Origin: Candidatus Saccharimonadota bacterium
GTDB lineage: Bacteria; Patescibacteriota; Saccharimonadia; Saccharimonadales; Saccharimonadaceae
Length of the DNA stretch: 64,000 nt
Direction of reading: 5' to 3'
NCBI GenBank assembly: GCA_017431955.1
Contig: JAFRKC010000005.1
Coordinates: forward strand, 169,954 to 233,953
Shown: positions 1-59,297 of the stretch, in pieces
Layout of the letters: every line of letters starts with the position of its first letter
Numbering within the stretch: the first letter of the stretch is position 1
Notes under the pieces: model-generated
Told to the model about the DNA's origin: nothing
Databases searched by the model: none
What the model saw: the letters and a program-made list of their open reading frames with translations, nothing else
Made by a program: the position numbers and the translations under genes

Positions 1-2359
1 CTTGATGCCCTGCTGGAAGATAAGGGGAGACAAGTTTGTCGTCTTGATTAGATTCAGAGAGATAATCAAGGTGTTTTGGCGATTTACCAGCGAAGTCTTT
101 GATGGAATTAGTGATGTAAAGATTAGTTTTGGCGCGGGTAATAGCGACGAAAAGCAAGCGGATACGCTCACTATCGGTGGCACCAGTGTGGCGGATGAAG
201 GTGAGGTTTTTAGGGAGCGAAAGCATGTTGTTATTCCCTTTGCTCTTGCCCCAGGCGGTGTTGTCGACGGCAATTAGGAAAACGTGGGAAAACTCAAGAC
301 CCTTGGACTTGTGCGCGGAGAGAACTTGGACCGAATCTTCGGCATCGCGATAAGGACTGGTGCTAATAAGTGGCGTATTGGCGGAATCGTAATCGTCAAT
401 GAATTCGATCAGATCGGCGAGCTTTGGCGAGTCGGTTTTGAGATGAGATTTTAGTTTTTCTTTGAATACGTGCAATGATTCATAAATTTGGAAGGTGGTG
501 TCATCGGAGACGTTTTTAGTGTAAAAATCAAGGAAATTAGATCTGTATTCTAGATTTTTGATTTGGTCAGTGCCGATGATAAGATCGATAATACGCTCTA
601 AGGAAAGATTGAGTGATTTAAGGGCTAGATTAGAGAAGAAGTTACCGATTGTTCTTAGTTTTTCGTTGTCTGATTCCATAAGATAGTCTAGGCCGGATTT
701 GTGACATTTTGCGGCGGCATCGGTGATTTTAATGGCTTCGTAAGCGTCGACTTCCCAGAAATCGAAGCCGAGGATTTCTAGCAGTAGGTTGGCGGTCGGT
801 TTGGAATTTGCGGTGTTATAAACAAAGCGAGCAATGGTCAAAATTTGGTGGATGTATTCATTTTTAAAGAGGTCCTCGCGCTTTTCGTAGGAGATGTTGA
901 TCTCGGGATGGTTTTTAAGATAAGGTAACATCGGAATGATATATTTGTGCTTCGGCGCGATGATGGCGATTTCTTTTTGTGGAACTCCAGATTTAATGAG
1001 TGCAGAGATTTGGTCTGCGACCCAGAAATATTCGGCATCAGAAGAGATAAATTCGTGGCGTGAAATCTCGGCGGTCGTTGGTTTCTTAATGTTAGAAGTG
1101 AGGGATTTGTTGAGATTTAGTTCTGGTTGAGTTTTAACAAAACTATCTGGTACTTGATCGATGATTTTGCGCGAAAAATCGAGAATATCTTGAGTACTGC
1201 GGTAGTTTTGAACGAGGTTAATAACCTTGGCGTGGTAATGATTTTTGAAACTAGATAGACTGGCGGCATTGGCGCCTTGGAATTCGAAAATGGCCTGGTC
1301 GTCATCGCCGACGGCCATAACGATTGGGTTTTCGTAGTCGGTGAGTTGTTTAATAATTTCGAATTCGGATGGGTTGGTGTCCTGGAACTCGTCTAAGAGA
1401 ATAAATTGATAGCGCTCAGAAAGAGTAAGACGAAAACCGGTGTCGGATTTTAGGGCGTTGATAGCTTCTCTGATCATGTCGGCAAAATCGAGCAAGTTGT
1501 TTTTCTCGAGATAATCTTGATATTTTTGCATGACGTTCGCTAGCGAAACGAGTTTTTTGTTAGCAATACGATCTTTTAAGCGATAATTTCCGAGGTTGTC
1601 TTTTTCAAAATAAGTGTCTTTCCAACATGAGAGCGGAGTGATTTTGCTTATGGTCTTAGCCTCATTTAGGGCGCTTTCTAGATCTCTAGCTACATCCTCG
1701 ATATTTCTAGAGACGTTTTTTAGGATTAATTCGTTTTTGGTATGGTTTTTAAGGGTTTCGTAGATTGGCTCGTAGACTTCTTTTAGATTTGGCTCTAGTA
1801 CGCGCGGAGTGAGTTTAACGAGAAATTCTGAGATTACGGAGCTTAGAACTTCGCTGTCTTTTTGGTTGATGGTGGCGATTTTTTCTAAATCTTTGGCGGT
1901 GAGGCCGGCGGATTTGGTGGCATCGATGGTAGAGGCGATGTCGGTAGGGTTATCACCTCTTAAAATGTCGGAACTATCAAGCGCGCTTTGGATATTTTTG
2001 ATAATTTTGAATTTTAGGATATCGTCGATCGGCTCGTCGAAACGGCGGCTTGGAGCGTCGGAATAATTGCTATATTCGGCGAGGATTTCGCGGCCGAAAG
2101 CGTGGTAAGTATTGATATGGACTTTGACGGCGTCTTTACCGATGGTAGAGGCGAGACGTTCGCGCATGTTGGCGGCGCCGGATTCAGTAAAGGTAATACA
2201 AAGGATATTTTCTGGGTTAGTATCGGTGTTCTTTAGAATGTAAGCGACTTTTTTGGATAGAAGCTGAGTTTTGCCGGTGCCTGGGCCAGCAAGAACCAGA
2301 AGCGGCCCTTCTAGGTATTCGACGGCCCTTTTTTGTTCTTCGTTTAACTCAATTACCAT
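1..2359 (-). CDS. UvrD/PcrA-type superfamily 1 DNA helicase (3' part cut by window edge)
   Basis: ATP-dependent 3'-5' helicase of the UvrD/PcrA/Rep group, used in DNA repair and replication restart. About 786 codons are visible from the ATG at 2359; the C-terminus lies outside the window. Motifs in order: Walker A LAGPGTGKTQLL near residues 22-33, Walker B LLDEFQDTNP, motif III GDDDQAIFEFQGA, motif IV VQNYRST, motif V SAHKSKGLEFSHVF, motif VI LLFVAITRAKTNLYI. Motif VI falls near residue 750, later than in a 720-residue PcrA, so the middle domains are enlarged or a nuclease domain follows. No Shine-Dalgarno site precedes the ATG; a TGT-TAAAAT box ends 6 bases upstream, suggesting a leaderless mRNA. 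Exact subfamily is not decidable from this part. Confidence 0.93.
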   Translation of the reverse strand, partial: MVIELNEEQKRAVEYLEGPLLVLAGPGTGKTQLLSKKVAYILKNTDTNPENILCITFTESGAANMRERLASTIGKDAVKVHINTYHAFGREILAEYSNYSDAPSRRFDEPIDDILKFKIIKNIQSALDSSDILRGDNPTDIASTIDATKSAGLTAKDLEKIATINQKDSEVLSSVISEFLVKLTPRVLEPNLKEVYEPIYETLKNHTKNELILKNVSRNIEDVARDLESALNEAKTISKITPLSCWKDTYFEKDNLGNYRLKDRIANKKLVSLANVMQKYQDYLEKNNLLDFADMIREAINALKSDTGFRLTLSERYQFILLDEFQDTNPSEFEIIKQLTDYENPIVMAVGDDDQAIFEFQGANAASLSSFKNHYHAKVINLVQNYRSTQDILDFSRKIIDQVPDSFVKTQPELNLNKSLTSNIKKPTTAEISRHEFISSDAEYFWVADQISALIKSGVPQKEIAIIAPKHKYIIPMLPYLKNHPEINISYEKREDLFKNEYIHQILTIARFVYNTANSKPTANLLLEILGFDFWEVDAYEAIKITDAAAKCHKSGLDYLMESDNEKLRTIGNFFSNLALKSLNLSLERIIDLIIGTDQIKNLEYRSNFLDFYTKNVSDDTTFQIYESLHVFKEKLKSHLKTDSPKLADLIEFIDDYDSANTPLISTSPYRDAEDSVQVLSAHKSKGLEFSHVFLIAVDNTAWGKSKGNNNMLSLPKNLTFIRHTGATDSERIRLLFVAITRAKTNLYITNSIKDFAGKSPKHLDYLSESNQDDKLVSPYLPAGHQ

Positions 2360-2365
2360 AAGGCT

Positions 2366-2371
2366 ATTTTA
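2366..2371 (-). promoter_or_regulatory. -10 box of the helicase gene
   Basis: TAAAAT preceded by TGT (extended -10), ending 6 bases before the ATG at 2359. The expected transcription start coincides with the start codon. Confidence 0.55.
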
Positions 2372-2381
2372 ACACAAAAGC

Positions 2382-4087: not shown

Positions 4088-4115
4088 TTGCAAGCTTAAT
4101 TTTTTTTGATACAAT
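4088..4115 (+). promoter_or_regulatory. Promoter of the 4122 membrane protein gene
   Basis: TTGCAA at 4088-4093 and TACAAT at 4110-4115 with a 16-base spacer. The predicted start is at the ATG at 4122, giving a leaderless mRNA. Confidence 0.5.
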
Positions 4116-4121
4116 ATGCTT

Positions 4122-4832
4122 ATGGAAAAAGAAAAGAAACCTGTATATAAAAGGACATGGTTTGTGCTTTTAATTGTTACAATTATTATACTTGTGATTC
4201 CTGATATTTTTATGAATATAATTCGTTCAGATGATTGTACAGGTATGTGTGCTTTGGGACTAGCTTCTTTATGGGGATTTTCAAAATTGGGGTCTGTAAT
4301 AGTCGTTGTTCTAATGTGGATTATTTTTGCTATCTATTCAGCAAGTAGACCACCCATTCCTGCAAATAAAAAACAACGAACGAACAAACAAACTGTTGTT
4401 AGCCAAAAAACAGCTCCAAAATCTGTTAAAAATTCAGCCAAAAAAATGACATTTGATAAGTTTTCTGTAATTTTTTCAATTATTGTCAATGTCACCAGTG
4501 CTTTATTAGTTATTTTTTTTCTCTTGGGTTCGTTAGTAATGAAAATTGAGCAAGTAGGTGTTATGAGTGATGGAGGGCTTATAGCGAGCGTTTCAATGAT
4601 TTTTTATTCTATAACTATGCCTGTTAGAATTGTTTCTATTATTCTATCTATGATATCAATCTCCAATAACAAAAATAAGTTCAAGAGCATTAATAAAATG
4701 CCAAAGGAAACAAGGAAACTTGTAAGCATGAATAAAAAATCTATGATTATTTTGATTATATTAACAATCGTGCCGTTTCTTTTTATTTTATTATTAATGA
4801 CTAGTATTAGACTTAAATTCGTCGGAGTTTAA
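4122..4832 (+). CDS. Polytopic membrane protein of unknown function
   Basis: Not recognised. The product (236 residues from the ATG at 4122) has about five hydrophobic segments: one at the N-terminus after a Lys-rich start, one near residues 55-75, a long one near 120-145, one near 160-180 and one at the C-terminus. A Lys/Gln/Ser-rich linker separates the second and third. It is A+T-richer than its neighbours and is the only plus-strand gene among minus-strand genes, so it may be a late arrival. The ATG at 4122 is preferred over 4116 because TTGCAA-16-TACAAT places the transcription start at about 4121-4122. No Shine-Dalgarno site is present. Confidence 0.7.
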   Translation: MEKEKKPVYKRTWFVLLIVTIIILVIPDIFMNIIRSDDCTGMCALGLASLWGFSKLGSVIVVVLMWIIFAIYSASRPPIPANKKQRTNKQTVVSQKTAPKSVKNSAKKMTFDKFSVIFSIIVNVTSALLVIFFLLGSLVMKIEQVGVMSDGGLIASVSMIFYSITMPVRIVSIILSMISISNNKNKFKSINKMPKETRKLVSMNKKSMIILIILTIVPFLFILLLMTSIRLKFVGV

Positions 4833-7905: not shown

Positions 7906-10413
7906 CTAATGTTTGATTTTTTTGTGCAATTCGACCGTAACAAATGGAACGATGAAAGAAATTATTACGACGATGATGAGAGGGATGATTGGCACCGTGG
8001 AAACATGAAGTAGCGCGCCAAGTGGACCGAAGATAGCTAGGCTTTGAAGAATGGCTGCTGCGGCTAAAGAGAAGAGGAAGCTGTTGTTTTTGGCTTTTAG
8101 TCTAGAAATGGCAGATTCATGAATGCCGCGAACGGTGAAGGCATTAGTCCATTGCATTACGACGAGGGCGATGAAGGCTAAGGTATTGGATTGCTCGTGC
8201 GTTAAGAATTGGCTAGAGATGTAGTAAGTGCCAAGAGTGATGATGGCCATGGTGATAGCGATGATAATCATGCGTTTGATGAGGTAACTGGAAAGAATTG
8301 GCGCGTCCTTTGGTTCTGGTTTGCGCTTAAGATAGTGTTTTTCTGATGGCTCGAGGCCAATTGGGATAACCATGAGCGAGTCGGTGACTAAGTTGATCCA
8401 GAGAATCTGAATTGGATAAAGTAGTTGTTCTCCGCCAAAGACGAGTGCGCCAACCATGGTAAGAACTTCACCGGCGTTAGTAGCAAGGAGATAAACTAAC
8501 ATGCGACGAATGTTGGCTAGGATAATGCGGCCTTCGTGCATGGCTTCAATGATGTTTTTAAAGTTGTTATCTAGAAGTACTATATCGCCAGCATCTTGTA
8601 CGATGGCGGGGCCGTCGCCCATAGCAATGCCAACGTGGGCGTTAGTGAGGGCCGGAACGTCGTTGACACCGTCGCCGGTCATAGCAACAATTTCATTCTT
8701 TTTAATAGCGGTTAAGATTCTGAATTTATCTTCTGGTGTAACGCGAGCAAAAACCATAGTTTTTTTGGCAATTTCTTCTAGATCCTCATCTGGTATATTG
8801 CCCATTCTGGAACAATCGAAAACTTGTGCAAAGTCATTAACTAACCCAAGTTTTTTACCAATAGCAAAGGCGGTTTGAGCATGGTCTCCGGTGACCATCT
8901 TTACTTTGATTCCGGCGGCGGTAGCTTGTTTGATGGCTGGAATAGCTTCGGTCCTAACTGAGTCGGCGATAGCAATAAGCCCCCTAAAAGCAAATAAGTC
9001 TTTTTTACTAAGGCGATTTAGCTCATTAATTTCGTGTTCCAGCTTGGCGGTTGCTACAGCAATGACTTTATAGCCGGCGTTACTAAATTCTTCTAGTTTG
9101 GCCTCGGCTTCTTCACGGTTTTTTTCGCTGATTTTGCATTTTTCGAAGATAGTTTCTGGTGCACCTTTAACAACTAGATTTAGGGCTCCGGTTTTAGTTT
9201 CATATAAGTTTCCAGAGACTTTAAGAGATTGGTCAAAAGCGTAACTATGGACCGGGCCGGTGTCGGTGAGATATGATTTGTGAGCTTTGATATAGTCCCA
9301 AATTGCCGAGTCTAGTGGATCGGTTGACTCCGCGAATGGCAGAGCAGATTTAGCAACAACTTCGAGGAAATTTTTATCAGAATTTTTAGCCGACCAGTGT
9401 TCTTGAAGAGATAACTTATTTTCGGTGAGGGTTCCAGTTTTGTCGGATGCAATAGTAGTGACGATGCCAATAGACTGAATAGCTCGCATTTCTTTGATTA
9501 GCGCGCGTTTTTTAGCCATACGGCGAGCGCCAAAGGCAAGTATAATTGAAATGGCTACTGGTAAGCCTTCTGGAACGGCTGAAACGATCATGGCTAGGGT
9601 GAACTCTGCAGCAGAGAAAAAACTGATACCATTCGCAAGCTGAATAATCAGGATGAGAATTGCTAGCGATACTACTACGATAGCGATTCTAACCACAAAT
9701 TTATTGATTTTGTCTTGGATTGGGCTAGATGATTCGGCAGACGAAGCAAGTGAGGCGATTTGACCGTATTCGGTATTGTTACCAGTTGCCGTGACGAGCA
9801 TTTTGCCAGAGCCGGTTAGAATGAAGGAGCCAGAGAAAAGGATGTTTCGTTGTTCATAGACTTTTTTGTCGCCAGAGATAGCTTTGGCGTCTTTGGCGAT
9901 AGCGTCGGATTCGCCGGTGAGCATAGATTCGTTGGCGAGCAGGCCGGATTCTTCGATGATGCGACCATCGGCTGGAACGCGATCCCCTTCTTTGAAGATA
10001 ACAATATCGCCAGGAACTAGTTCGTCTGCATCGATTTCGATTTCTTCATGGTCTCTTAGTACAGTGATTTGGTGGACGGTTTGAGCGTGCAGGCTGCGTA
10101 AAACGCGTTCGGTAGAAAAGTCTTGAATATAATAAATAGTGGCGTCGACTACGATAATTACGGCAATAATAGTGACTTCGGCCCAATCCTGTTGGATGGC
10201 AGACAGAATCATTGCAGAGATAAGAATGATCATAAAAACATCGATAAATGGTTCGAGGATTTTCTTCCAAAGTGGGGTGCTTTTAATATCAAGAACGTTT
10301 TTGCCGTATTTTTTTTGACGTCTTTTTACTTCTGGACTTAGTAGCCCAGTTTTTAGATTGGTTTTTAAGAGATCGAGACTTTCTTTAACAGTTTGATTAT
10401 AGAAATTGGGCAT
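7906..10413 (-). CDS. P-type cation-transporting ATPase, SERCA/PMCA-like (probable Ca2+ pump)
   Basis: Ion pump of the P2 class, probably exporting Ca2+ from the cytoplasm. The 835-residue product shows the actuator TGES motif near residue 168, phosphorylation site DKTGTLT near 327, nucleotide-domain TGDHAQTA, and hinge TGDGVND near 583. Ion-site motifs match calcium pumps: PEGLP in M4 (about residue 280), LATNAGEV in M5 and NLVTD in M6. The N-terminal cation-ATPase domain precedes M1. Single-gene unit; no Shine-Dalgarno site, but TATACT ends 6 bases before the ATG (10420-10425). Mn2+ or another divalent ion cannot be excluded. Confidence 0.92.
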   Translation of the reverse strand: MPNFYNQTVKESLDLLKTNLKTGLLSPEVKRRQKKYGKNVLDIKSTPLWKKILEPFIDVFMIILISAMILSAIQQDWAEVTIIAVIIVVDATIYYIQDFSTERVLRSLHAQTVHQITVLRDHEEIEIDADELVPGDIVIFKEGDRVPADGRIIEESGLLANESMLTGESDAIAKDAKAISGDKKVYEQRNILFSGSFILTGSGKMLVTATGNNTEYGQIASLASSAESSSPIQDKINKFVVRIAIVVVSLAILILIIQLANGISFFSAAEFTLAMIVSAVPEGLPVAISIILAFGARRMAKKRALIKEMRAIQSIGIVTTIASDKTGTLTENKLSLQEHWSAKNSDKNFLEVVAKSALPFAESTDPLDSAIWDYIKAHKSYLTDTGPVHSYAFDQSLKVSGNLYETKTGALNLVVKGAPETIFEKCKISEKNREEAEAKLEEFSNAGYKVIAVATAKLEHEINELNRLSKKDLFAFRGLIAIADSVRTEAIPAIKQATAAGIKVKMVTGDHAQTAFAIGKKLGLVNDFAQVFDCSRMGNIPDEDLEEIAKKTMVFARVTPEDKFRILTAIKKNEIVAMTGDGVNDVPALTNAHVGIAMGDGPAIVQDAGDIVLLDNNFKNIIEAMHEGRIILANIRRMLVYLLATNAGEVLTMVGALVFGGEQLLYPIQILWINLVTDSLMVIPIGLEPSEKHYLKRKPEPKDAPILSSYLIKRMIIIAITMAIITLGTYYISSQFLTHEQSNTLAFIALVVMQWTNAFTVRGIHESAISRLKAKNNSFLFSLAAAAILQSLAIFGPLGALLHVSTVPIIPLIIVVIISFIVPFVTVELHKKIKH

Positions 10414-10419
10414 ATTTTA

Positions 10420-10425
10420 AGTATA
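10420..10425 (-). promoter_or_regulatory. -10 box of the P-type ATPase gene
   Basis: TATACT on the minus strand ending 6 bases before the ATG at 10413. The -35 region is poor. Predicted leaderless start. Confidence 0.45.
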
Positions 10426-14260: not shown

Positions 14261-14289
14261 TTGACTTTTTTCGGTTTTTGTGCTATAAT
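14261..14289 (+). promoter_or_regulatory. Strong promoter of the 14296 gene
   Basis: TTGACT (14261-14266), 17-base spacer, TATAAT (14284-14289) with upstream TGC. The start codon ATG is at 14296, the expected first transcribed base. Confidence 0.85.
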
Positions 14290-14295
14290 GGGGGT

Positions 14296-14496
14296 ATGGG
14301 ACGTCAAAATAAACATCTTAAAAACCAGATATATGAACCAGAAAAATGTTGGGTGGGAGAGATTCAAAAAATTTGTTATGGTTCAAAGGAAGAGGCTGAA
14401 GTAGCGGCCAAAGTGGCTGAATATGATCATGGGGCTAAGAATCTTGGCGTTTATAAGTGTGAGTTTGGCGACCACTGGCATCTAAGTTCGAAGTAG
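14296..14496 (+). CDS. Small Cys/His protein, zinc-ribbon-like, probably from a leaderless mRNA
   Basis: 66-residue protein from the ATG at 14296. The end reads GVYKCEFGDHWHLSS, which resembles the YxCxxCxxWHL signature of a group of small bacterial zinc-ribbon proteins, but the second Cys of that pair is Gly here. Cys18 and Cys27 lie upstream, so Cys18, Cys27, Cys55, His60 and His62 could still form a metal site. Function unknown. The start at 14296 is chosen because the consensus promoter places the first transcribed base there; there is no Shine-Dalgarno site. Its last 62 bases overlap the 3' end of the convergent cutinase-VWA gene. Confidence 0.75.
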   Translation: MGRQNKHLKNQIYEPEKCWVGEIQKICYGSKEEAEVAAKVAEYDHGAKNLGVYKCEFGDHWHLSSK

Positions 14497-18825: not shown

Positions 18826-19473
18826 TTACCAGACGATTTTTGATTTTCCCCATTTTTCGAGTTGGTCGTTGGTTTTGCTAAAGTGTTTACAGCCAAAAAA
18901 ACCGTTGTAGGCAGAGAGTGGTGACGGGTGGGCGGCTTCTAGAATTAGGTGTTTTTCTTGATTAATGAGCGGCTTTTTGTTTCTGGCGTCGCGACCCCAA
19001 AGGAGAAATACGAGATGGTCTTTGGTCTCGTCTAGATATCTGATGGTGGCTTCGGTGAAAGTTTCCCAGCCGTGGTTACGATGCGAGCCAGCTTTGTGGG
19101 CCTCAACGGTGAGGACGTTGTTTAAAAGTAAAACTCCTTGGTCTTGCCAGTTTTTTAGATAGCCAGTTTTGTTGGCATGGCTGCCGATGTCGCTGTCGAT
19201 TTCTTTATAAATATTGATTAAAGATGGTGGAATAGGCTGAGAATTTGGTACCGAAAAAGCTAGGCCGTGAGCGGCGCCGGGAGTATGATATGGGTCTTGC
19301 CCGAGGATTACTACTTTTACTTCGTTTAAGTCGGTAGTAAAAGCCGAAAAAACCTGAGCCTTTTTAGGGAAAATGGTCTTTTTCTCATATTCATTAGAGA
19401 GAAATTCTGATAATTCTTTAAAATATGGTTTAGCGAATTCTGATTTTAAAAATGGTTTCCAACTTTCGTGCAT
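18826..19473 (-). CDS. ung: Uracil-DNA glycosylase
   Basis: Removes uracil from DNA as the first step of base excision repair. The 215-residue product is normal length for family 1 UDG and carries the water-activating motif GQDPYHTPG, and the leucine-loop motif HPSPLSAYNGFFG. A TGC-TATAAT box (19480-19485) ends 6 bases before the ATG, with no Shine-Dalgarno site, so the mRNA is predicted to be leaderless. It may be read through into the lysozyme-like gene 31 bases downstream. Confidence 0.96.
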   Translation of the reverse strand: MHESWKPFLKSEFAKPYFKELSEFLSNEYEKKTIFPKKAQVFSAFTTDLNEVKVVILGQDPYHTPGAAHGLAFSVPNSQPIPPSLINIYKEIDSDIGSHANKTGYLKNWQDQGVLLLNNVLTVEAHKAGSHRNHGWETFTEATIRYLDETKDHLVFLLWGRDARNKKPLINQEKHLILEAAHPSPLSAYNGFFGCKHFSKTNDQLEKWGKSKIVW

Positions 19474-19479
19474 AGAATT

Positions 19480-19485
19480 ATTATA
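19480..19485 (-). promoter_or_regulatory. Extended -10 box of ung
   Basis: TATAAT preceded by TGC, ending 6 bases before the ATG at 19473. It lies just past the terminator of the upstream gene. Confidence 0.65.
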
Positions 19486-19490
19486 GCATC

Positions 19491-23288: not shown

Positions 23289-23575
23289 TATAGTACTTTC
23301 GGAATTTTTATTTGATTATCTTCTTGTTCTTTAGTGAGCGCGAGCAGGTCTTCTCTGCTGGCTTCTTGCGGAATAATTTCGTCGTCGCGCCAGACATTTT
23401 CCATTTCAAAAACTTGGTAAGTTGGCTCGACGTCTTTAGTGTCTAATTCATCTAGTTGAGAAATGTAGTTGATGATGCTCTCGAGATCCTTGCCAAGGCT
23501 TTTAGAATCTTTTTCGGACAATGAAAAATCTGACAATTTTGCCAAATGTTCGATTTGTTTGTCGGTCGTATCCAT
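23288..23575 (-). CDS. gatC: Aspartyl/glutamyl-tRNA amidotransferase subunit C
   Basis: Small subunit (95 residues) that wraps around GatA and GatB and stabilises the complex. Recognisable start EHLAKLSDFSLSE and central ESIINYISQLDELDT followed by VEPTYQV. First gene of gatC-gatA-HEPN-gatB. TGT-TATAAT (23583-23588) ends 7 bases before the ATG and there is no Shine-Dalgarno site, so the whole operon probably begins with a leaderless reading frame. Confidence 0.93.
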   Translation of the reverse strand: MDTTDKQIEHLAKLSDFSLSEKDSKSLGKDLESIINYISQLDELDTKDVEPTYQVFEMENVWRDDEIIPQEASREDLLALTKEQEDNQIKIPKVL

Positions 23576-23582
23576 AGTACAA

Positions 23583-23588
23583 ATTATA
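23583..23588 (-). promoter_or_regulatory. Extended -10 box of the gat operon
   Basis: TATAAT preceded by TGT, ending 7 bases before the gatC ATG at 23575. Confidence 0.65.
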
Positions 23589-23619
23589 ACACAAAAATCG
23601 ATAATATACAGGGTAATAT

Positions 23620-25629: not shown

Positions 25630-25635
25630 AACTTA

Positions 25636-25641
25636 ATTATA
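25636..25641 (-). promoter_or_regulatory. -10 box of uvrB
   Basis: TATAAT ending 6 bases before the uvrB ATG at 25629, only 2 bases from the stop of the upstream LOG gene. Confidence 0.6.
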
Positions 25642-31821: not shown

Positions 31822-31827
31822 ATTATA
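31822..31827 (-). promoter_or_regulatory. -10 box of tig
   Basis: TATAAT ending 7 bases before the ATG at 31814, overlapping the stop codon (31823-31825) of the FAD-oxidase gene. Confidence 0.6.
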
Positions 31828-40738: not shown

Positions 40739-41720
40739 GATTTGCTTTCTCTTTTGAAATTGATTGATAAGAAATTGAGATCAAATCTTTAACAACATCT
40801 TCATAGGTGGTGTCGTAAGTTCTGAATCCAGCTGCATATTGGTGCCCGCCGCCGCCAAAATAACCTGCGATTTGGTCTGCGATTGGTAGTGCGGTGCGGA
40901 TTTTGCCGGTGACTTTACCGTCTGGGTAAGTTTTGATGGCTACAGCTACTTCTACGCCTTCAACTAGGCGCATTTCTTCGAGAATCAATACGTTTGGATT
41001 GTATTCATCGGAGAATTCGCGGATGTCATCCCAAGGGATGTGTACGGTGGCAAGTTGACCATCTAGAGAGTATTCGATGCGTTTGATAAGGTCGGCTTTA
41101 TAATCTAGAATGCGTGGGGATTTTTTCATGAATTCGCGGCGCTTTTCTTCTAGTTCGGAAACTTGGACGCCAAGATCGGCTAGCTCAGCGGCAGTGCGAA
41201 AAGTTTCGGAATTGGTCGATGCGCTAGTTAGCCCAAGCGTATCTGATAAGACACCACTCATCAAAGCGTCTGCAGCTGGTTTCTCAATTTTTAAGTTACA
41301 GTGTTTTGCTATCTTATAAATTAATTCACAACAGGCTGGCAAGGCTTGACAGATTGCTTCGTGCTCGAAGTTAAGGTCGTCTGGGGTTTCGTGATGGTCG
41401 ATTACGAGTACTGGTGAGCTATATAACTTATTTTTGATAGCGGCATCGTCTAATAATTTAGATAAGAGAACTTCAGCGGCGGTATCGACAATGATGTAGC
41501 CGTCGGCCTTAAAATCAAATTCATTAGTAACTCTGGACCAATCTTCAAAATAGTGAAGATATTTGGGGATATCAACTGGGCAATATAATGAGACGTTTTT
41601 GTCCCCTAATAGATGATCTAACGAAATAGCCGAGCCCAAAGAATCGCCATCTGGGTTTTCGGCCTGGATAATGCAGATATTTTCTTTATCTTTCAAAAAC
41701 TCGTTAAATTTGTCGTACAT
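40713..41720 (-). CDS. DHH-family phosphoesterase (NrnA-like)
   Basis: Mn-dependent phosphoesterase of about 335 residues. DHH domain: NPDGDSLGSA, VDTA and VIDHHETPDDL; DHHA1 domain: GGGHQYAAGF near the C-terminus. NrnA enzymes degrade oligoribonucleotides and/or 3'-phosphoadenosine phosphate; GdpP-like sensor domains are absent. The ATG at 41720 is preferred over the longer frame from 41738, since the latter would start inside the -10 box. TGC-TATAAT (41727-41732) ends 6 bases before this ATG. Confidence 0.9.
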   Translation of the reverse strand: MYDKFNEFLKDKENICIIQAENPDGDSLGSAISLDHLLGDKNVSLYCPVDIPKYLHYFEDWSRVTNEFDFKADGYIIVDTAAEVLLSKLLDDAAIKNKLYSSPVLVIDHHETPDDLNFEHEAICQALPACCELIYKIAKHCNLKIEKPAADALMSGVLSDTLGLTSASTNSETFRTAAELADLGVQVSELEEKRREFMKKSPRILDYKADLIKRIEYSLDGQLATVHIPWDDIREFSDEYNPNVLILEEMRLVEGVEVAVAIKTYPDGKVTGKIRTALPIADQIAGYFGGGGHQYAAGFRTYDTTYEDVVKDLISISYQSISKEKANHETIQPTN

Positions 41721-41726
41721 AAGATT

Positions 41727-41767
41727 ATTATAGCACAATACTGGTCAAGGTTCTGGTATGCTATAAT
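41727..41767. promoter_or_regulatory. Divergent leaderless promoters of the DHH gene and rmuC
   Basis: Minus strand: TGC-TATAAT at 41727-41732, ATG at 41720. Plus strand: TGC-TATAAT at 41762-41767, ATG at 41775. The whole intergenic region is 54 bases and both genes lack a Shine-Dalgarno site. -35 boxes are poor, as expected for extended -10 promoters. Confidence 0.7.
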
Positions 41768-41774
41768 ATTGGTT

Positions 41775-42929
41775 ATGGAAATAATTTTGGTCATAATTGG
41801 GGCATTTACGGTTTTGCTGCTGCTGATTTTAATTTTTAAGAAACAAAAACCGGTAGAAGTTGATTTATCTAAGGTTGAAGAGCGTATGATTCGCATCGAA
41901 AGCGAGCTCGATAAGATTACGCCAAAAATTTCAAATGAATTCCGCGAGAACCGCAAAGAGATTTCGAACAATTTTGAGACGATTCAGAAAACTGTTGATA
42001 ATAGAGTAAAGAGCTTACAGGATGATAACGCTAAGAAGTTGGAAGAGATGCGCCAAACGGTAGACGAAAAGTTGAAAGAGTCGGTTGAGAAGCGCTTTAA
42101 TGAAAGTTTTAAGACTATCTCTACACAGCTAACTCAGGTTTATGAAGGCCTAGGTGAAATGAAAAATCTCGCGACTGGCGTGGGTGATCTTAAAAAAGTA
42201 ATGGAAGGTGTAAAAACTAGAGGCATTTATGGCGAGGTACAACTTGGCGCGATTATCAGTGAAATGCTAGCTGCTTCGCAGTATGAAGAAAATATCGCTA
42301 CTAAGAAGGGCTCTTCGGATAGAGTAGAGTTCGCGATTAAGATGCCTGGAAAAGATAGCAGTGTATATCTACCGATCGACTCGAAATTCCCGGTTGAGAA
42401 TTATTCTAGATTAATTGCGGCTTATGATAAGGGTGATAAGGATGATATCGAGAAATTCCGTAAGGCTTTGGCTGATGATGTAAAAACTCAGGCGAAAAAG
42501 ATCTCGACCAAATATCTTGATGTACCAGCTACTACTGAATTTGCTATGATGTTTGTGCCAACAGAGAGTTTGTATGCCGAAATTTTGCGTATCCCTGGGC
42601 TGTCGGATGAAGTAAGATCGAAATATAGTGTATCGATTGCTTCACCATCAACTCTGCCAGTGATGTTAAATGGTCTTTTGATGGGCTTTCGCTCGGTGGC
42701 TATTGAGAAGCGCTCGGCTGAAGTATGGCAAACGCTTGGTGCGGTTAAAACTCAATTCGGCAAGTTTGGCGATCTTTTGGATGGTGTGCAAAAGAAGCTC
42801 ACCGAATCGGCTAATAAAATAGAATCTGCTAAAACTACTTCTCGCCAAATAGAGAAAAAACTTTCCGGTGTGGAGGTTTTATCCGAATCTGAATCAGTCA
42901 AAATGATCGGCGAAGTCGCGGCCGAATAA
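41775..42929 (+). CDS. rmuC: DNA recombination protein RmuC
   Basis: RmuC-family protein of about 384 residues, thought to limit inversions by nuclease action. One N-terminal membrane helix (about residues 2-22), a coiled coil (about 30-120), then the RmuC nuclease-like domain with GVKTRGIYGEVQLG, VYLPIDSKFPVENY and FVPTESLYAEIL. ATG at 41775 is chosen over TTG 41769 because the -10 box ends at 41767. Ends one base before the convergent recR. Confidence 0.93.
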   Translation: MEIILVIIGAFTVLLLLILIFKKQKPVEVDLSKVEERMIRIESELDKITPKISNEFRENRKEISNNFETIQKTVDNRVKSLQDDNAKKLEEMRQTVDEKLKESVEKRFNESFKTISTQLTQVYEGLGEMKNLATGVGDLKKVMEGVKTRGIYGEVQLGAIISEMLAASQYEENIATKKGSSDRVEFAIKMPGKDSSVYLPIDSKFPVENYSRLIAAYDKGDKDDIEKFRKALADDVKTQAKKISTKYLDVPATTEFAMMFVPTESLYAEILRIPGLSDEVRSKYSVSIASPSTLPVMLNGLLMGFRSVAIEKRSAEVWQTLGAVKTQFGKFGDLLDGVQKKLTESANKIESAKTTSRQIEKKLSGVEVLSESESVKMIGEVAAE

Positions 42930-43907: not shown

Positions 43908-45356
43908 CTAATTACTTTTGACTGTGTATACGTATATTCTATCAGAATTCTCAGTTTTTGGGGAGGTGATAATTTGGGATAATTTGACATTTTCCGGTAA
44001 TTCTTCGATTTTTCCTAGAGAGTAAGCTTCGTCGTTATGCAAATCAGTTAGCGAATTAATAATGGTGATATTTCTTTTTTCTTCCAAGATTTTATAGAAA
44101 TTGAGATTTGGATTATCTGCAGCGATTAGTAGCGTTTTGTTGTTTTCGACGTGTTGATTGATAATAGATAGATCTGTGTTAAACTGATTAGCTACCGATG
44201 GGTTATATTTGTAACCTTCCATATAGTGTGCAAGGTCTGAAATAATTATTAAGCCGAGGAATATAGAGATCGGCAAGATACCGAATACTCTAGCGTAGGG
44301 ATTTTCTGGAAATAGCCCGTACCATTTTTCGAGAATGTAACGTAGGCCGTGAGCTACTAATATAGCAAGTGGGAGTACGATTAACATAGCTGAGTCTGGA
44401 TTAAAACCTGATAAGAATGCTGTGAATAGTATGAAATAAAAAGCGATGGAATTTCTGGAAGCGAAAAATCCTCTCGAGGTGGAAAGAACACCAATAATTG
44501 CGATGGCTACAGTCGCTAAATTAATCAGTGGCGATAGGTAGACGCTTTCTAAGTGACCGTTCCAGGAGAAATATGGCGTAAAGGCTTGTTTTAGGTTTGG
44601 TAAGAATTGGTTGAGAGAGAAGTTTTTAGCAAATAAAAGTTCGATAATGACGTCGGAACGATTGAAAATATTATAGATAATGAGGCCAACACCACCTAGT
44701 ATAACAATAGCCGAGATGATAAGTGGAATTTTTGGTAGGCTTTTGATTGTGAAACGGAGGTGCGGGTTGAAAAAAGCAAATAGTGCAATGAAAAATACTA
44801 GATATGGTAGATGCGGCGTAAAAAGAGATAAAAGTAGTGCAAAAGCAAAAACAAAGCAGTAGAGCGGGCGTGGTTTTTTGACACCTTGGATTTTAGACCC
44901 AAGCCAAAGCAAAAAAGTTGGCCAGAACACTAACATGATAAGTGGGCTACCAGAACCGGCTAGCCATAGGAATGGCACAGAGAGAACCGTCAGAATTGAA
45001 GCCAGGAGCGCAACGTTACTCTTAAACCAGCGGTTAAGTAAGAGGATTAAGAGAAATCCAAGAATGATACCAATAATAATACTTGGTAATTTGATGGCGT
45101 ATTCGTTAAAACCAATATATTTGATAGAGAATTTTTGCAGGACATGGTAAGGAAGGTTGACTAGATCGCCGGTAGCAATAGTTTCAATATGGAGATTGTA
45201 TGAAGTGGCGGCAGAATCAATTTCTGCTTGAGAAAGCCCGTTAGGAGCGATTCTTGGCATAAGAAGAAGTAGCGCAATAAAAGCGATACCAAGGATAATG
45301 TATCCGATATGGAATCTGTAGCGATACAAAAAAAGTTTAGAAATATTCTTTTTCAC
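43908..45356 (-). CDS. Polytopic membrane glycosyltransferase (PMT/ArnT-like)
   Basis: About 482-residue integral membrane protein with roughly ten hydrophobic helices and a soluble C-terminal domain of about 90 residues. The layout (helix, extracytoplasmic loop with an acidic residue in GLSQAEIDSA, many helices, C-terminal domain) is that of GT-C glycosyltransferases such as ArnT and PMT. The expected Asp-Glu motif after helix 1 is reduced to one Glu plus Asp, so the assignment is tentative. Start is GTG at 45356: TGC-TATAAT ends 6 bases upstream, inside the dnaB 3' flank. Confidence 0.72.
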   Translation of the reverse strand: MKKNISKLFLYRYRFHIGYIILGIAFIALLLLMPRIAPNGLSQAEIDSAATSYNLHIETIATGDLVNLPYHVLQKFSIKYIGFNEYAIKLPSIIIGIILGFLLILLLNRWFKSNVALLASILTVLSVPFLWLAGSGSPLIMLVFWPTFLLWLGSKIQGVKKPRPLYCFVFAFALLLSLFTPHLPYLVFFIALFAFFNPHLRFTIKSLPKIPLIISAIVILGGVGLIIYNIFNRSDVIIELLFAKNFSLNQFLPNLKQAFTPYFSWNGHLESVYLSPLINLATVAIAIIGVLSTSRGFFASRNSIAFYFILFTAFLSGFNPDSAMLIVLPLAILVAHGLRYILEKWYGLFPENPYARVFGILPISIFLGLIIISDLAHYMEGYKYNPSVANQFNTDLSIINQHVENNKTLLIAADNPNLNFYKILEEKRNITIINSLTDLHNDEAYSLGKIEELPENVKLSQIITSPKTENSDRIYVYTVKSN

Positions 45357-45362
45357 ATAAAC

Positions 45363-45368
45363 ATTATA
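45363..45368 (-). promoter_or_regulatory. Extended -10 box of the glycosyltransferase gene
   Basis: TATAAT preceded by TGC, ending 6 bases before the GTG start at 45356; supports a leaderless GTG start. Confidence 0.6.
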
Positions 45369-45388
45369 GCATGAATTATGATTTAGTC

Positions 45389-46753: not shown

Positions 46754-48092
46754 TGTATTTAATTTCCTCCACTTCTCCACCAATTATACCAGAGATTTTT
46801 TCATTAATCGGAGTTTTTTTAACATTATTTTGATCATGAATTTTAAGAGAAAAATTGCCTAAGGCCTGAGATAATAATTGTTTGTTGTCTGTTTTATCAA
46901 GTCGGCCATAGATAAATTTATTTTTTGGATAAAGATGCAGGGTATCGTCAATAAATTCGTGGTTAACATCTCTTGATAGGGTCAGCGCGAGAGTATTACT
47001 TTTTGGTTTAATTTTATCTATAAAAGATTTAAAATCGAAGCTTGTATTGTCTTCGTCAGTGGTTTCTTTTACGATAACCTCTTCTTTTTCGATAGTTTTA
47101 ATTTCATCTTTGGAAACTTTAGCAACTGTAGTTTTAGCGGCGGCAAAATGAATTTCTGGAGCTTTGGCGACTTTTACAAAAGCTAATAAAAGTTTTGCTT
47201 CTGGAAATGGATTAGTGACGCTTGGTAGTTTTTCTAATAAGGGCAGAAGTTCTGGTTTTGGCTGTTCGATAATATATTTAATAATCTCTTCGGCTAGAAT
47301 TTCTGGTTTAATACCTTTCTGAATTGACTCTTTGATGATCTTGGAAGTTTCGATATAATTTTGAGTGGTATAAGCATTAAGAAGTTCTGTAATAATTTGA
47401 TCCTCTGGTAGGCCGATGGCTTCTATGATTTGAGATTTAGTAAGCTTTTTGTCGGCCGACATAGTAGCGAGTTGGTCTAATAACGATAGCGAGTCGCGAA
47501 AGGAGCCTCCACCACGTTTAACAACTATGTCTACTGCGTCGTCATCGATGTCGATTTTTTCGTTTTCAGCAACTTTTTTCAAGAACTTTTTCATAGTGTC
47601 GGCGTCGGCTAGTTTAAAATTATAAGTTTGTGCTCTTGAAGTGATGGTGATTGGCACTTTGTGTGCGTCGGTGGTAGCCATGATAAAAACGACGTGTTTT
47701 GGCGGTTCTTCCAAAGTTTTTAAGAGAGCGTTAAAGGCCGATTTGCTGAGCATATGAACTTCGTCGATAATGTAGATTTTGTATTTGCCAGTAGATGGAG
47801 CAATAGTAGCCTTTTCGCGTAGATCACGAATATTATCAACGCCAGTGTTAGAAGCGGCGTCAATTTCAATAATATCTAAGTAGTTGTCTTCTATTTTATA
47901 ATCAAAATCGTTGATTGCATGAGCAAAAATGCGAGCAACGGATGTTTTGCCAGTGCCACGTGGACCAGTAAAAAGATAGGCGTGAGAAATCTGATTGTTC
48001 TTGATGGCGTTTTCTAGTGTCGCAGTAATTTTTTCTTGCCCAACAACATCAGATAGTTTAGTAGGACGGTATTTTCTATATAAAGCCTTCAT
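46731..48092 (-). CDS. dnaX: DNA polymerase III gamma/tau subunit, zinc module missing
   Basis: Clamp-loader ATPase. The 453-residue product has Walker A TGPRGTGKTSVARIFA, Walker B YIIDEVHMLS, sensor 1 IMATTDAHKVP, SRC-like ITSRAQTYNF and domain III. The Cys4 zinc module normally found between Walker A and the DLIEIDAAS motif is absent: FAHAINDFDYKIEDNYLDIIEIDAASN contains no cysteine. The C-terminal tau part is short. TATAAT (48100-48105) ends 7 bases before the ATG; no Shine-Dalgarno site. Confidence 0.94.
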   Translation of the reverse strand: MKALYRKYRPTKLSDVVGQEKITATLENAIKNNQISHAYLFTGPRGTGKTSVARIFAHAINDFDYKIEDNYLDIIEIDAASNTGVDNIRDLREKATIAPSTGKYKIYIIDEVHMLSKSAFNALLKTLEEPPKHVVFIMATTDAHKVPITITSRAQTYNFKLADADTMKKFLKKVAENEKIDIDDDAVDIVVKRGGGSFRDSLSLLDQLATMSADKKLTKSQIIEAIGLPEDQIITELLNAYTTQNYIETSKIIKESIQKGIKPEILAEEIIKYIIEQPKPELLPLLEKLPSVTNPFPEAKLLLAFVKVAKAPEIHFAAAKTTVAKVSKDEIKTIEKEEVIVKETTDEDNTSFDFKSFIDKIKPKSNTLALTLSRDVNHEFIDDTLHLYPKNKFIYGRLDKTDNKQLLSQALGNFSLKIHDQNNVKKTPINEKISGIIGGEVEEIKYNGGEDIF

Positions 48093-48099
48093 TGGCTTA

Positions 48100-48105
48100 A
48101 TTATA
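48100..48105 (-). promoter_or_regulatory. -10 box of dnaX
   Basis: TATAAT ending 7 bases before the dnaX ATG at 48092. It is the probable start of a dnaX-dnaB transcript. Confidence 0.6.
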
Positions 48106-48116
48106 TCATAGGAAAT

Positions 48117-53439: not shown

Positions 53440-54285
53440 CTATTTTTCGGAATATTTGATGAGCTTGGCATGCACGACTAGTTTTTCGTTGTCATTGTAG
53501 CAGGTTGAGAGAGTGAGTACACGGTCGGATGCCGAAACGGTGGTGCCAAAACTAATATTGCTACGTCCGGCAATCATGTTGAGCCAATCTTGATATTCGC
53601 TATCGGTGGTGAAGTTGACCTTGATGTAGTCGTTGGTGGTAGGGATACGGTAAATGCTGAAGATTTGCCAGAGGCTGTTGTAAGATTCGGTAGAGATTTT
53701 AATAACGTGATTTTCGGTGTTGCTATACCAGGAGCTTTTGAGAGTACCATGGAGCGAGCCAAACATGGTGCCGTCTAGCCTGCCGTGGGCGTAAATAATG
53801 TTGTTTTTATCGCTGAGAGAGCCGTTGTTGCGGTAATCTAAAAACACCCAGCCCGCATCGTTGATGGTTTTCTTGAATGAATGAGTTAGATAATATTTAT
53901 TATCGCCAGATTGAACAAACGGATAGTTAACGTTGGTGCCTGGAACCTGGATCCAGCCAACTGTATCAGAGTTAGTCTTTTTGAGATCGGCAAAATCTAC
54001 ATCTATCAGATTCATTTTTACGTACATCCAGTAAGGGTCATTTGGGTCTATGCCGTCACCGGTGGTTTCGCCGCCAGAATCCTGGTTGATTTCTACAGAA
54101 CTTTGCAAATCAGAGATTTCTTCATTGGTTTTTTCGGAATCTATTTTCCATTTGATGATGCCAATGGCACTATAAAGAGTAATACAAAAAGCGATAATAC
54201 AGAGTGGTAAGACTATAAAGTGAAAAGTTTTTTGATTGGTAAGAGATTTGTTGCTTTTTTTGGATGTTACTTTTTGCTTCGCCAT
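53440..54285 (-). CDS. Class B-like sortase
   Basis: Membrane transpeptidase that attaches proteins to the cell surface. The 281-residue product has an N-terminal signal anchor (about residues 23-45), a linker, and a sortase domain with VGWIQVPGTNVNYPFVQSGDN, YYLTHSFKK and VFLDYRNNG, typical of class B. Catalytic His is in IIYAHGR (about 167) and Cys in LTLSTCYND (about 259). The usual active-site Arg position (R-x-V-V after the Cys) holds Lys in NEKLVVHAKL. TAAAAT (54292-54297) ends 6 bases before the ATG. No substrate gene is adjacent. Confidence 0.88.
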   Translation of the reverse strand: MAKQKVTSKKSNKSLTNQKTFHFIVLPLCIIAFCITLYSAIGIIKWKIDSEKTNEEISDLQSSVEINQDSGGETTGDGIDPNDPYWMYVKMNLIDVDFADLKKTNSDTVGWIQVPGTNVNYPFVQSGDNKYYLTHSFKKTINDAGWVFLDYRNNGSLSDKNNIIYAHGRLDGTMFGSLHGTLKSSWYSNTENHVIKISTESYNSLWQIFSIYRIPTTNDYIKVNFTTDSEYQDWLNMIAGRSNISFGTTVSASDRVLTLSTCYNDNEKLVVHAKLIKYSEK

Positions 54286-54291
54286 AATTTT

Positions 54292-54297
54292 ATTTTA
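54292..54297 (-). promoter_or_regulatory. -10 box of the sortase gene
   Basis: TAAAAT ending 6 bases before the ATG at 54285; it lies just upstream of the phosphorylase gene end at 54300. Confidence 0.5.
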
Positions 54298-57402: not shown

Positions 57403-58067
57403 TGCTTATTCTTTATTTTATCTGATTTTACTGGGGTGAGAAATAGGTTATAGATTGAGACCAATGCTGCGGAAATTAAGATACCGCCCAGAATATCGGT
57501 GATCCAATGTACCCCTGATAGCATTCTGCCGACTACGGTGAAAGAAGCCAAAAACATGGCTGCAATACTGATAATTTTGGCGAATTTACTGTTAGCGAAT
57601 GTGCCTTTGTTGAGTAAGATAACGCCCCCAGCGATACAGAGAGCAAACAGAGTATGGGAAGATGGGTAGGATGGCTCTAGTTCGCCATCTAAAATAACTG
57701 GACGGAAATTGAGGGCGAGTTTATCGAATAACACATAGACTGCTAGCATGGCTAAAATAAGCGCACCAAAACAGATAATGCCACGATCTACCTTGAAAAA
57801 ACTTTTTCTTTTGACGAGTTGGGCTAGACCTAAAATTGCATAAACCAGGACAAAACCAAATAGAAGATAGCCTAGAATTTCGGTGATTTTATACAAAGTT
57901 TCGTTAAAGCCAAATCCTTGATGAACAGCTAAATTCCAAGTGGCAAAACCCACCGCAGAAGATTCTGGACCAATTGGTTTTACATCGATATTTTTTGTTA
58001 AAATGGTGAAAATTACTGCCAAAATTGAGAAGAATATGGCGTAAAATAAGTTCTTTTTTCTTTGCAT
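57399..58067 (-). CDS. PAP2-family membrane phosphatase
   Basis: 222-residue protein with about six hydrophobic helices. Acid-phosphatase motifs: KLALNFRP (motif 1), PSYPSSHTL (motif 2) and GRMLSGVHWITD (motif 3), all on the same membrane face. Likely a lipid phosphatase, for example undecaprenyl-diphosphate or phosphatidic-acid phosphatase, serving cell-wall or lipid recycling. Substrate not assignable. No Shine-Dalgarno site; A+T-rich -10 candidates lie 9-11 bases upstream. Confidence 0.88.
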   Translation of the reverse strand: MQRKKNLFYAIFFSILAVIFTILTKNIDVKPIGPESSAVGFATWNLAVHQGFGFNETLYKITEILGYLLFGFVLVYAILGLAQLVKRKSFFKVDRGIICFGALILAMLAVYVLFDKLALNFRPVILDGELEPSYPSSHTLFALCIAGGVILLNKGTFANSKFAKIISIAAMFLASFTVVGRMLSGVHWITDILGGILISAALVSIYNLFLTPVKSDKIKNKH

Positions 58068-58125
58068 AACAAAACTATATTATCATAAACGGGATCAAAA
58101 GAGTACTAGAAATCGTTTTTAATGA

Positions 58126-58131
58126 TATAAT
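58126..58131 (+). promoter_or_regulatory. Extended -10 box of the 58140 gene
   Basis: TATAAT preceded by TGA. It ends 2 bases before the ATG at 58134 and 8 bases before the ATG at 58140. Confidence 0.6.
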
Positions 58132-58139
58132 ACATGCAT

Positions 58140-59297
58140 ATGAGAGAGGATTTTAATTACATTGGCAAAAATATTTACGTCGATACAGCCTGCCAGTCTT
58201 TAAGACCAAAGACCGTGATCGATGCTTTAAATGAGTATTACACCAAGTTTAACTCTTGTGGCGAGCGCGTAAAATATCCTTGGGGCGTAAAAACTGAGCA
58301 AAAAGTAGATGAAACGCGTACAAAAGTCCTGAAGTACCTTAAACTTAGCACCAAAGATTATTTCGTATCATTCACATTAAATACTACTTATGGTATTAAC
58401 TTACTCTTGAACCAAATTGATGCCTCAAAATTTAGCAGAGTGATCACAAGCGACATCGAGCATAATTCCCCGTTCCTCTCTACAATGACTTTTGCCGAGA
58501 AAAATGATCTTCCGCGCGAGGTCATAACTAGAGACGACACCGGTACATTCCCACTCGAGATAGATTTTGATAGGGCTCTGGTGGTGGTAAACTGTGTGTC
58601 TAATATTGATGGTAGAAAGTTGTCTAATTTAAACGACTTAGTCAAAAGAGTACATAAAGAACACGGAATTATTATTGTCGATGCCGCGCAGGCAATGGCT
58701 CATAACGTAGATGTTTTGCGCAAGGTTCAGGCCGACGCAATCTGTTTTTCGGCACACAAGATGTATGCGCCGTCTCTTGGTGTGATGGTGGTTAGAAAGG
58801 ATCTGCTTTCTAAAATTAATACAACGTTTATCGGTGGTGGCATGGTGGATGACGTAAATAAAAACGACTTTACGCCATCTTACGATAATCCAGATAAGTT
58901 CTACACTAAATTTGAATCTGGTCTGCAAGCTTGGGGTGAGATTATCGCACTAGGTAGGGCGATTGATTGGCTAGAAAAGGTGCCAAAGAAAGCTAAGACG
59001 AAGTTTAATTCTTATTGTAAACAGCTGTTTGACTTTATGAAAAAACAGCCAAAAATCCATCTTATTAATAGTACTCCTAGCCCAGTGATTTCATTCTATG
59101 TTGAAGGTATAGATTCGCATCTGTTTGGTGCAGCGTTGGCCGATGAAGGAATTATGGTGCGCACTGGTTATTTCTGTGTGCATTATTATCTTGATCACGT
59201 TAAAAAATATCCGCCACTAATTCGTATTTCGCTGGGGCTTCATAATAATCAGGCCGATATCGATAAAATTATTAAGGTGTTAAAGAAGGCTCTATAA
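58140..59297 (+). CDS. SufS/CsdA-like class V aminotransferase (probable cysteine desulfurase)
   Basis: About 385-residue PLP enzyme. PLP lysine in FSAHKMYAPSLG, preceded by DAAQAMAH, and a Cys in RTGYFCVHYY at the place of the SufS catalytic Cys (RTGHHC). It is distinct from the IscS at 2803-3963 and belongs to the SufS side of the family. No sufU or sufBCD genes are nearby; instead it is coupled by overlapping stop and start codons to a membrane thioredoxin-fold protein. ATG 58140 is preferred over 58134 by distance from the -10. Cysteine desulfuration is probable; selenocysteine or other substrates are possible. Confidence 0.85.
   Translation: MREDFNYIGKNIYVDTACQSLRPKTVIDALNEYYTKFNSCGERVKYPWGVKTEQKVDETRTKVLKYLKLSTKDYFVSFTLNTTYGINLLLNQIDASKFSRVITSDIEHNSPFLSTMTFAEKNDLPREVITRDDTGTFPLEIDFDRALVVVNCVSNIDGRKLSNLNDLVKRVHKEHGIIIVDAAQAMAHNVDVLRKVQADAICFSAHKMYAPSLGVMVVRKDLLSKINTTFIGGGMVDDVNKNDFTPSYDNPDKFYTKFESGLQAWGEIIALGRAIDWLEKVPKKAKTKFNSYCKQLFDFMKKQPKIHLINSTPSPVISFYVEGIDSHLFGAALADEGIMVRTGYFCVHYYLDHVKKYPPLIRISLGLHNNQADIDKIIKVLKKAL

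Follow-up and report, generated by a model that had tools for sequence, protein, structure and literature searches.

Where does a messenger RNA begin when a promoter -10 hexamer ends only six to eight bases ahead of the start codon? The question is raised by a 64-kb stretch (hereafter the window) of a Candidatus Saccharimonadota genome (assembly GCA_017431955.1, contig JAFRKC010000005.1, positions 169,954 to 233,953), in which the initial annotation, made from the sequence alone, had described such hexamers ahead of at least 13 genes and proposed that leaderless initiation is the default for first genes. The first part of this interpretation stands: leaderless-type starts on extended -10 promoters occur genome-wide, are conserved, and are complementary to Shine-Dalgarno (SD) sites. 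The second part, the default role, does not. As judged from the DNA, it is very probable that an extended -10 promoter abuts the start codon, that the mRNA is leaderless and that translation is SD-free. The window is part of a 712,862-bp genome in 7 contigs with an estimated completeness of 98%. The best relatives of its uvrB gene, at 82-83% identity, are labelled Candidatus Saccharibacteria and many derive from the ruminant gut, which places the genome in a Saccharibacteria (TM7) lineage of the Patescibacteria.

Hexamer spacing, Shine-Dalgarno sites and conservation

Gene-level counts were taken from 65% of the genome (the window and 20 further stretches; 75,351 of the 464,000 bases are N), with genes called by a coding-score caller that is blind to upstream signals. 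A gene is termed leaderless-type when a hexamer that matches TATAAT in at least 5 of 6 positions, starts with TA and ends with T lies at a spacing of 6-8 bases from the start. The hexamer count that the initial annotation had put forward as a check reveals an enrichment in this sample: 72 of 348 genes are leaderless-type, whereas 200 dinucleotide shuffles averaged 8.6 and never exceeded 19. The spacing profile agrees: in the sample, TATAAT precedes ATG 48, 22 and 12 times at spacings of 6, 7 and 8, versus 3-13 times at each of the remaining spacings between 0 and 25. Across the whole genome, TATAATN6ATG occurs 69 times, the N16 pattern 12 times and the reversed pattern 5 times. Two genus-mates, G157 and G109 (median best-hit identity 60% and 66%), show the same peak in their sampled parts (36/14/7 and 39/14/11 at spacings 6/7/8). 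In 200 kb of Escherichia coli passed through the same pipeline, none of 153 genes qualifies, and TATAATN6ATG and its N16 counterpart are found once and twice, respectively. On the strength of the shuffles, the spacing profile and the E. coli control, an artefact of composition was rejected. A Deinococcus plasmid run as a positive control was uninformative, given its 38 genes and its general scarcity of hexamers.

Two further signals, neither of which was used to select leaderless-type genes, accompany the hexamer. TGn precedes it at 102 of the 117 spacing-6 genes in the three genus genomes (34/42, 31/36 and 37/39), against a background in the window genome of 164/2394 hexamers in coding DNA and 158/894 elsewhere between genes. 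A pyrimidine stands immediately ahead of the start codon in 109/117 spacing-6 genes versus 321/701 others. The usual initiator is a pyrimidine just ahead of a purine; given this pattern and the near-fixed pyrimidine at -1, transcription appears to start at the A of ATG. The window and 17 of the 20 stretches contain 22 tRNA genes: 15 have TGn and a hexamer within 60 bp upstream, three have a hexamer but no in-register TGn, and four have no hexamer. With the extended -10 ahead of most tRNA genes, the motif is a genuine promoter in this bacterium. We found one Sigma70_r2 gene; both its helix-turn-helix, close to the end, and the segment that follows region 2.4 agree with solved primary sigma factors, and that segment (PVHMVETINK) is identical to theirs. 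It is presumably in this segment that the residues contacting the TG of an extended -10 lie. A dedicated sigma factor was considered and rejected, as the sole Sigma70_r2 match resembles an ordinary primary sigma.

Leaderless-type genes and SD sites rarely coincide. With a stricter scorer (SD of 4 or more), an SD is present at none of the 72 leaderless-type genes and at 180 of the 276 others in the window genome; the corresponding figures are 1/56 and 104/166 for G157, and 3/64 and 160/263 for G109. An earlier, looser scorer was used for the distance classes of TGnTATAAT, which occurs with a downstream feature 133 times and faces a called coding sequence in 118. Among these 118, 45 end 6-8 bases before the coding sequence, two are nearer, and four lie at 9-16 bases without an SD. 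All five at 17-20 bases have an SD, and an SD of 5 or more is found at 15 of the 28 intergenic cases at 21-100 bases. Nothing suggests, in the genes and RNAs inspected, that SD recognition has been lost. No 16S gene was found in the assembly of the window genome, and loss of the anti-SD can be dismissed in the 3 of 9 searched relatives in which a 16S was found, all of which retain ...CCTCCTTT, ending ...GGATTACCTCCTTT. Loss of S1 can likewise be set aside, since a 361-residue open reading frame (ORF) with four S1 matches is present.

The mode of initiation varies with the position of the gene. Leaderless-type, SD and neither account for 31, 27 and 22 of 80 divergent genes; 20, 24 and 16 genes behind same-strand gaps of 25-99 bp; and 5, 35 and 27 of 67 genes behind gaps of at least 100 bp. 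Where the same-strand gap is below 25 bp (127 genes), 15 are leaderless-type, 88 have an SD and 24 have neither, in keeping with the earlier statement that genes inside operons carry strong SD sites. A position weight matrix trained on the two relatives and corrected by decoy positions puts the leaderless share at 17% overall: about 35% for divergent genes and, behind a same-strand gene, 9% below 25 bp, 28% at 25-99 bp and 5% from 100 bp upwards. With roughly a third of divergent genes and so few of those behind long gaps, leaderless initiation cannot be called the default among first genes. Leaderless-type starts are, on these counts, one of two main predicted initiation modes, found chiefly at short upstream gaps. 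The uvrB, tig, dnaX and sortase genes start 8-24 bp behind a same-strand gene, and their sites thus look like internal promoters rather than those of first genes.

The sites are conserved within the genus. In 41 of 60 orthologue pairs the partner of a leaderless-type gene is itself leaderless-type, versus 24 of 166 pairs for other genes (Fisher p = 3e-14, with spacing 5 allowed as well and the two relatives not independent of each other). At the uvrB loci of relatives, most of them labelled Saccharibacteria, a site at spacing 5-8 is present in 63 of 79; the survey covered 80 loci, one without a start in range, and a few have identical upstream regions. The tig gene (30537-31814, minus strand) is leaderless-type here, and both genus-mates have TATAAT followed by a short SD-bearing leader; the alignment marks it as an apparent evolutionary switch of initiation mode within the genus. 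Statements about the phylum rest on counts of TATAATN6ATG versus N16 in 286 Patescibacteria genomes, the small stretches from the phylum holding too few genes. Beside the 69/12 of the window genome, the totals are 237/49 for the genus (2 genomes), 405/135 for the family (12), 89/17 for the class (3) and 6450/3750 for the rest of the phylum (261). The comparison with other Patescibacteria that had been called for thus reveals an N6 excess in 210 of the 261 genomes outside the class, with 9 ties and 42 lower; p is below 0.01 in 80. By N6/N16 ratio the window genome comes 16th among the 286, and by excess 5th.

Palindromes between divergent genes

Four of the 69 TATAATN6ATG matches represent two sites, each read on both strands. 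A search for CATNNTATAATTATANNATG in 379 genomes returned 8 sites in 6 genomes, and the reversed control none. Five of these palindromes, each of 20 bp, fall within three genus genomes; their two divergent start codons are separated by 14 bp, centred on the shared TATAATTATA, and none was found in the fourth genus genome, G286. At all five sites, of the form CATnnTATAATTATAnnATG, one shared -10 reads on both strands between divergent genes, and all 10 ORFs that start there match Pfam. The pairs, named by Pfam and by eye, are RNase H and RelA/SpoT, a galE-like epimerase and a sugar transferase, Mur ligase and TsaE, and, in two genomes, a class II tRNA synthetase (glycyl by eye) and an ABC transporter. 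The Pfam domains of the RNase H, RelA/SpoT, epimerase, Mur ligase and TsaE proteins begin at residues 3-9.

The geometry of the palindromes is compact. Two TG elements, one per strand, are present at four of the five genus sites, where the start codon provides the T, and the C before the start the G, of the opposite gene's TG. The two full TATAAT overlap by 2 bp, and the predicted transcription starts are 15 bp apart. As ten of the 14 bp between the starts are the shared -10, a leader or SD could be accommodated only if a promoter lay within the gene opposite. At the synthetase/ABC palindrome of the two genomes, 18 of 20 positions are identical, while fourfold-degenerate sites of the genes agree at only 54/148 and 30/88. 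At further loci of the genus, divergent start codons are 18-38 bp apart and at least one of the pair has a leaderless-type site; among the 24 divergent gaps called in the E. coli sample, one measures 38. The values of -2 and 0 seen in G157 probably reflect miscalled starts and were left out of the evidence.

We consider it somewhat probable, given this layout, that leaderless initiation let the intergenic space shrink to the 20-bp palindrome CATGnTATAATTATAnCATG, which combines two starts, two overlapping -10s and, at four of five sites, two TGs, and that the genes compete if a single polymerase fits. Occupancy would presumably be mutually exclusive; if only one polymerase can sit at the palindrome, the two genes would compete at every initiation. 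The palindromes also show how far the space between two bacterial genes might contract while still carrying two promoters.

Of the remaining three palindromes, the one in G182 is flanked by two long ORFs, one to either side, and the other two by a single long ORF each. The G182 site (L176, 1501-1520) is in a stretch of 25% GC from a distant Patescibacterium, where the same palindrome separates Elp3-like radical-SAM and methyltransferase-like ORFs, both named by eye.

Sites and neighbouring genes in the window

All 14 of the listed starts have a near-consensus -10 at 6-8 bases, with the start codon at the position given by the initial annotation (Table 1). Each hexamer matches TATAAT in 5 or 6 of 6 positions, 10 of 14 exactly; the spacing is 6 bases at nine sites, 7 at four and 8 at one. 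TGn, said earlier to precede many of them, does so at 11 of 14, the exceptions, at which it is not in register, being 10413, 25629 and 54285. The absence of an SD was reproduced at 13 of 14 starts; the flag at tig is a scorer artefact, in that its promoter TGATATAAT holds GTGAT, which the looser scorer counted as an SD. The coding-score caller, blind to upstream signals, recovers the revised starts at 41720, 41775 and 45356; neither the ORF at 4122 nor the one at 14296 is called by it at all. Pfam agrees with the earlier names for UvrD, P-type ATPase, UDG, GatC, UvrB, trigger factor, DHH, RmuC, DnaX and sortase, and the glycosyltransferase label at 45356 corresponds to a PMT_2 match slightly below its cut-off. 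Two weaker cases, at 18795 (minus) and a TTG start at 38255 (minus), are, like the start at 58067 in Table 1, absent from the original list.

Table 1. Leaderless-type sites in the window, each span running from the promoter element to the start codon
Gene or ORF	Span	Strand	Hexamer, spacing and remarks
uvrD-like helicase	2357..2374	-	tgtTAAAAT, spacing 6, ATG; UvrD-helicase match from residue 5; gene runs past window end
236-residue ORF, no Pfam match	4107..4124	+	tgaTACAAT, spacing 6, ATG
P-type ATPase	10411..10425	-	TATACT, spacing 6, without TGn
66-residue ORF	14281..14298	+	tgcTATAAT, spacing 6
uracil-DNA glycosylase (ung)	19471..19488	-	tgcTATAAT, spacing 6
gatC	23573..23591	-	tgtTATAAT, spacing 7
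uvrB	25627..25641	-	TATAAT, spacing 6, without TGn; same-strand gene 14 bp ahead
tig	31812..31830	-	tgaTATAAT, spacing 7; same-strand gene 8 bp ahead
DHH family	41718..41735	-	tgcTATAAT, spacing 6; divergent from rmuC
rmuC	41759..41777	+	tgcTATAAT, spacing 7
glycosyltransferase-like, GTG start	45354..45371	-	tgcTATAAT, spacing 6
dnaX	48090..48108	-	tgaTATAAT, spacing 7; same-strand gene 24 bp ahead
sortase	54283..54297	-	TAAAAT, spacing 6, TGn out of register; same-strand gene 14 bp ahead
class-V aminotransferase (58140)	58123..58142	+	tgaTATAAT, spacing 8
start absent from the original list (58067)	58065..58079	-	TATAGT, spacing 6, without TGn

Ten of the 14 listed sites could be compared with at least one genus-mate, and six (14296, 23575, 25629, 41720, 45356 and 58140) are kept in every relative compared. 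The 66-residue ORF at 14296-14496 (plus), which has no Pfam match, has relatives of about 69% identity in G157 and G109, both with a -10 at leaderless distance. In G109, gatC has a site at the same spacing, the uvrB site is kept, and the glycosyltransferase-like gene has both the GTG start and the site. The aminotransferase site is present in both relatives at spacing 7. The DHH family gene and rmuC form a divergent pair with back-to-back extended -10 promoters and 54 bp between their start codons.

At 3960-4007 (minus), TGGTATAAT N6 ATG opens a leaderless-type ORF of 15 codons whose stop overlaps the start of a nifS-like gene (ATGA). This single case suggests translational coupling of the nifS-like gene to a leaderless mini-ORF; no counterpart was found before the nifS-like gene at the best matches in G157 and G109 (33.8% identical). 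Leaderless mini-ORFs as a class were not upheld: the candidates are a mix of missed real genes, tRNA promoters and chance matches, with only one ORF of fewer than 50 codons showing an ATGA overlap. Elsewhere in the window, 14435-16459 (minus) encodes a 674-residue protein with cutinase-like, von Willebrand A and PKD domains, and the 1035-residue ORF at 11110-14217 (minus) has no Pfam match whatever.

Alternative explanations and known systems

In the mechanism that we favour, a sigma70-type RNA polymerase would read the extended -10 (TGnTATAAT) with little help from a -35 box, the hexamer lying 6, or less often 7-8, bases from the start. Transcription would begin on the A of ATG or at most 1-2 nt away and produce an mRNA without a leader, to be translated without SD contact, presumably via the assembled 70S ribosome as for leaderless mRNAs elsewhere. 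The remaining genes would have a leader or be operon-internal, about two thirds of them with an SD-like match. In the extreme case, one 20-bp palindrome would serve two divergent genes.

Several results count against this picture. There is a weak excess of -35 boxes, with a TTGACA match of at least 4/6 in 47 of 191 cases versus 14.5% of shuffles. The exclusion of SD sites is partly geometric, because the hexamer fills the SD position, and 96 of the 276 other genes in the window genome have neither signal, so the classification misses some. At spacings of 7-8, a leader of 1-2 nt would be equally possible. The site is present in one partner only in 19 of 60 orthologue pairs (window genome) and 24 of 166 (relative). 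Of the 10 comparable listed sites, four are kept in no relative compared: uvrD-like (2359), with an SD instead of the site in the G157 orthologue; ung (19473), with no site in G157 or G109; tig (31814); and dnaX (48092), with no site in G109, the one relative compared. In the order outside the family, N6 is barely above N16 (125 versus 102, 7 genomes). More distant uvrB relatives keep variant hexamers such as TACAAT, and exact TATAAT therefore probably understates the signal at the level of the order.

How far do other explanations account for the data? The hexamers could be true promoters with a displaced start, giving leaders of 1-5 nt or transcripts that begin inside the ORF and use a later in-frame codon. 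This fits the spacing of 7 or 8 in 30 of the 72 cases in the window genome and the weaker -1 pyrimidine at those spacings (16/22 and 5/8; 13/14 and 5/7, and 12/14 and 8/11, in the relatives). We judge it very unlikely, as the pyrimidine is near-fixed at spacing 6, in 54 of 60 orthologue pairs no more than 2 codons separate the aligned start from the partner's nearest start codon, and the Pfam domains of five of the palindrome proteins already begin close to the N-terminus. That the main promoters lie further upstream, with SD-less leaders, and that the proximal -10 is secondary and minor is very unlikely: four listed genes are near enough to a same-strand gene for read-through, but at divergent start gaps of 14-36 bp any other promoter could only lie inside the opposite gene, and the proximal site is conserved. 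Upstream regions are AT-rich and background hexamers occur at most distances, as a functionless, chance origin of TATAAT would have it. Such an origin is scarcely credible in view of the shuffles (8.6 versus 72), the confinement of the peak to spacings 6-8, the enrichment of the unselected TGn and -1 pyrimidine, the conservation of the site and the E. coli result of 0/153.

If extended -10 promoters do abut start codons in this way, tools that rely on SD sites may misplace gene starts in Saccharibacteria, and less so in other Patescibacteria; a -10 at 6-8 bases would be a strong alternative signal. The map of leaderless bacteria would gain a lineage with a sharp code, TGnTATAAT N6 ATG with a pyrimidine at -1. 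Differences between leaderless-type and SD starts within the genus, as at tig, would make the evolution of initiation mode directly traceable. The open-licence literature searched yielded no account of leaderless genes from either Saccharibacteria or Patescibacteria; in the available portions of papers on the Candidate Phyla Radiation, 'leaderless' concerns the role of YchF and the title of a protein-secretion reference.

Related arrangements are known from Actinobacteria, Deinococcus-Thermus and other bacteria. The accessible text of Zheng et al. (2011, PMC3160421) describes TA-led leaderless genes in Actinobacteria and Deinococcus-Thermus, with TANNNT about 12 bp upstream of the start, which is read there as a sign that the leader is absent. 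They coexist with SD-led genes and exceed 20% of genes in the two richest groups, and operon-distal genes are reported usually to need an SD. The sites reported here are alike in having a -10 at leaderless distance, no inferred leader and SD-led genes alongside; they differ in their full TATAAT and in TGn at 81-95% of spacing-6 sites. That survey covered 953 bacterial genomes of 2010, and its accessible text does not name Patescibacteria among the groups, one positive being unclassified. In Deinococcus-Thermus, according to excerpts of Zhong et al. (2025, PMC12340547), the -10 abuts the ORF and the mRNA is leaderless, the spacing is required, a correctly placed added -35 box raises expression, and about one third of D. 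radiodurans genes are of this type. Abutment of promoter and ORF is the same here, with the evidence being experimental there and drawn from sequence in our case; the bacterial-domain survey in those excerpts leaves out symbiotic or not clearly classified species.

The leaderless trait would therefore be of a kind known elsewhere, in a lineage for which it has apparently not been described, with the palindromic start-codon promoter as its probably most novel part. The closest comparison for the latter is with bidirectional promoters, in which, as the available parts of PMC12825309 and PMC10268837 describe, a near-symmetric -10 is bound by RNA polymerase in either direction and one binding blocks the other. 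The most frequent start-to-start distance there is 18 bp, 10 and 23 bp being common as well, with 7-25 counted (PMC12825309, same portion). The palindromes, with a predicted distance of 15 bp and two full TATAAT that overlap by 2 bp, differ in that the transcription starts would coincide with the two start codons.

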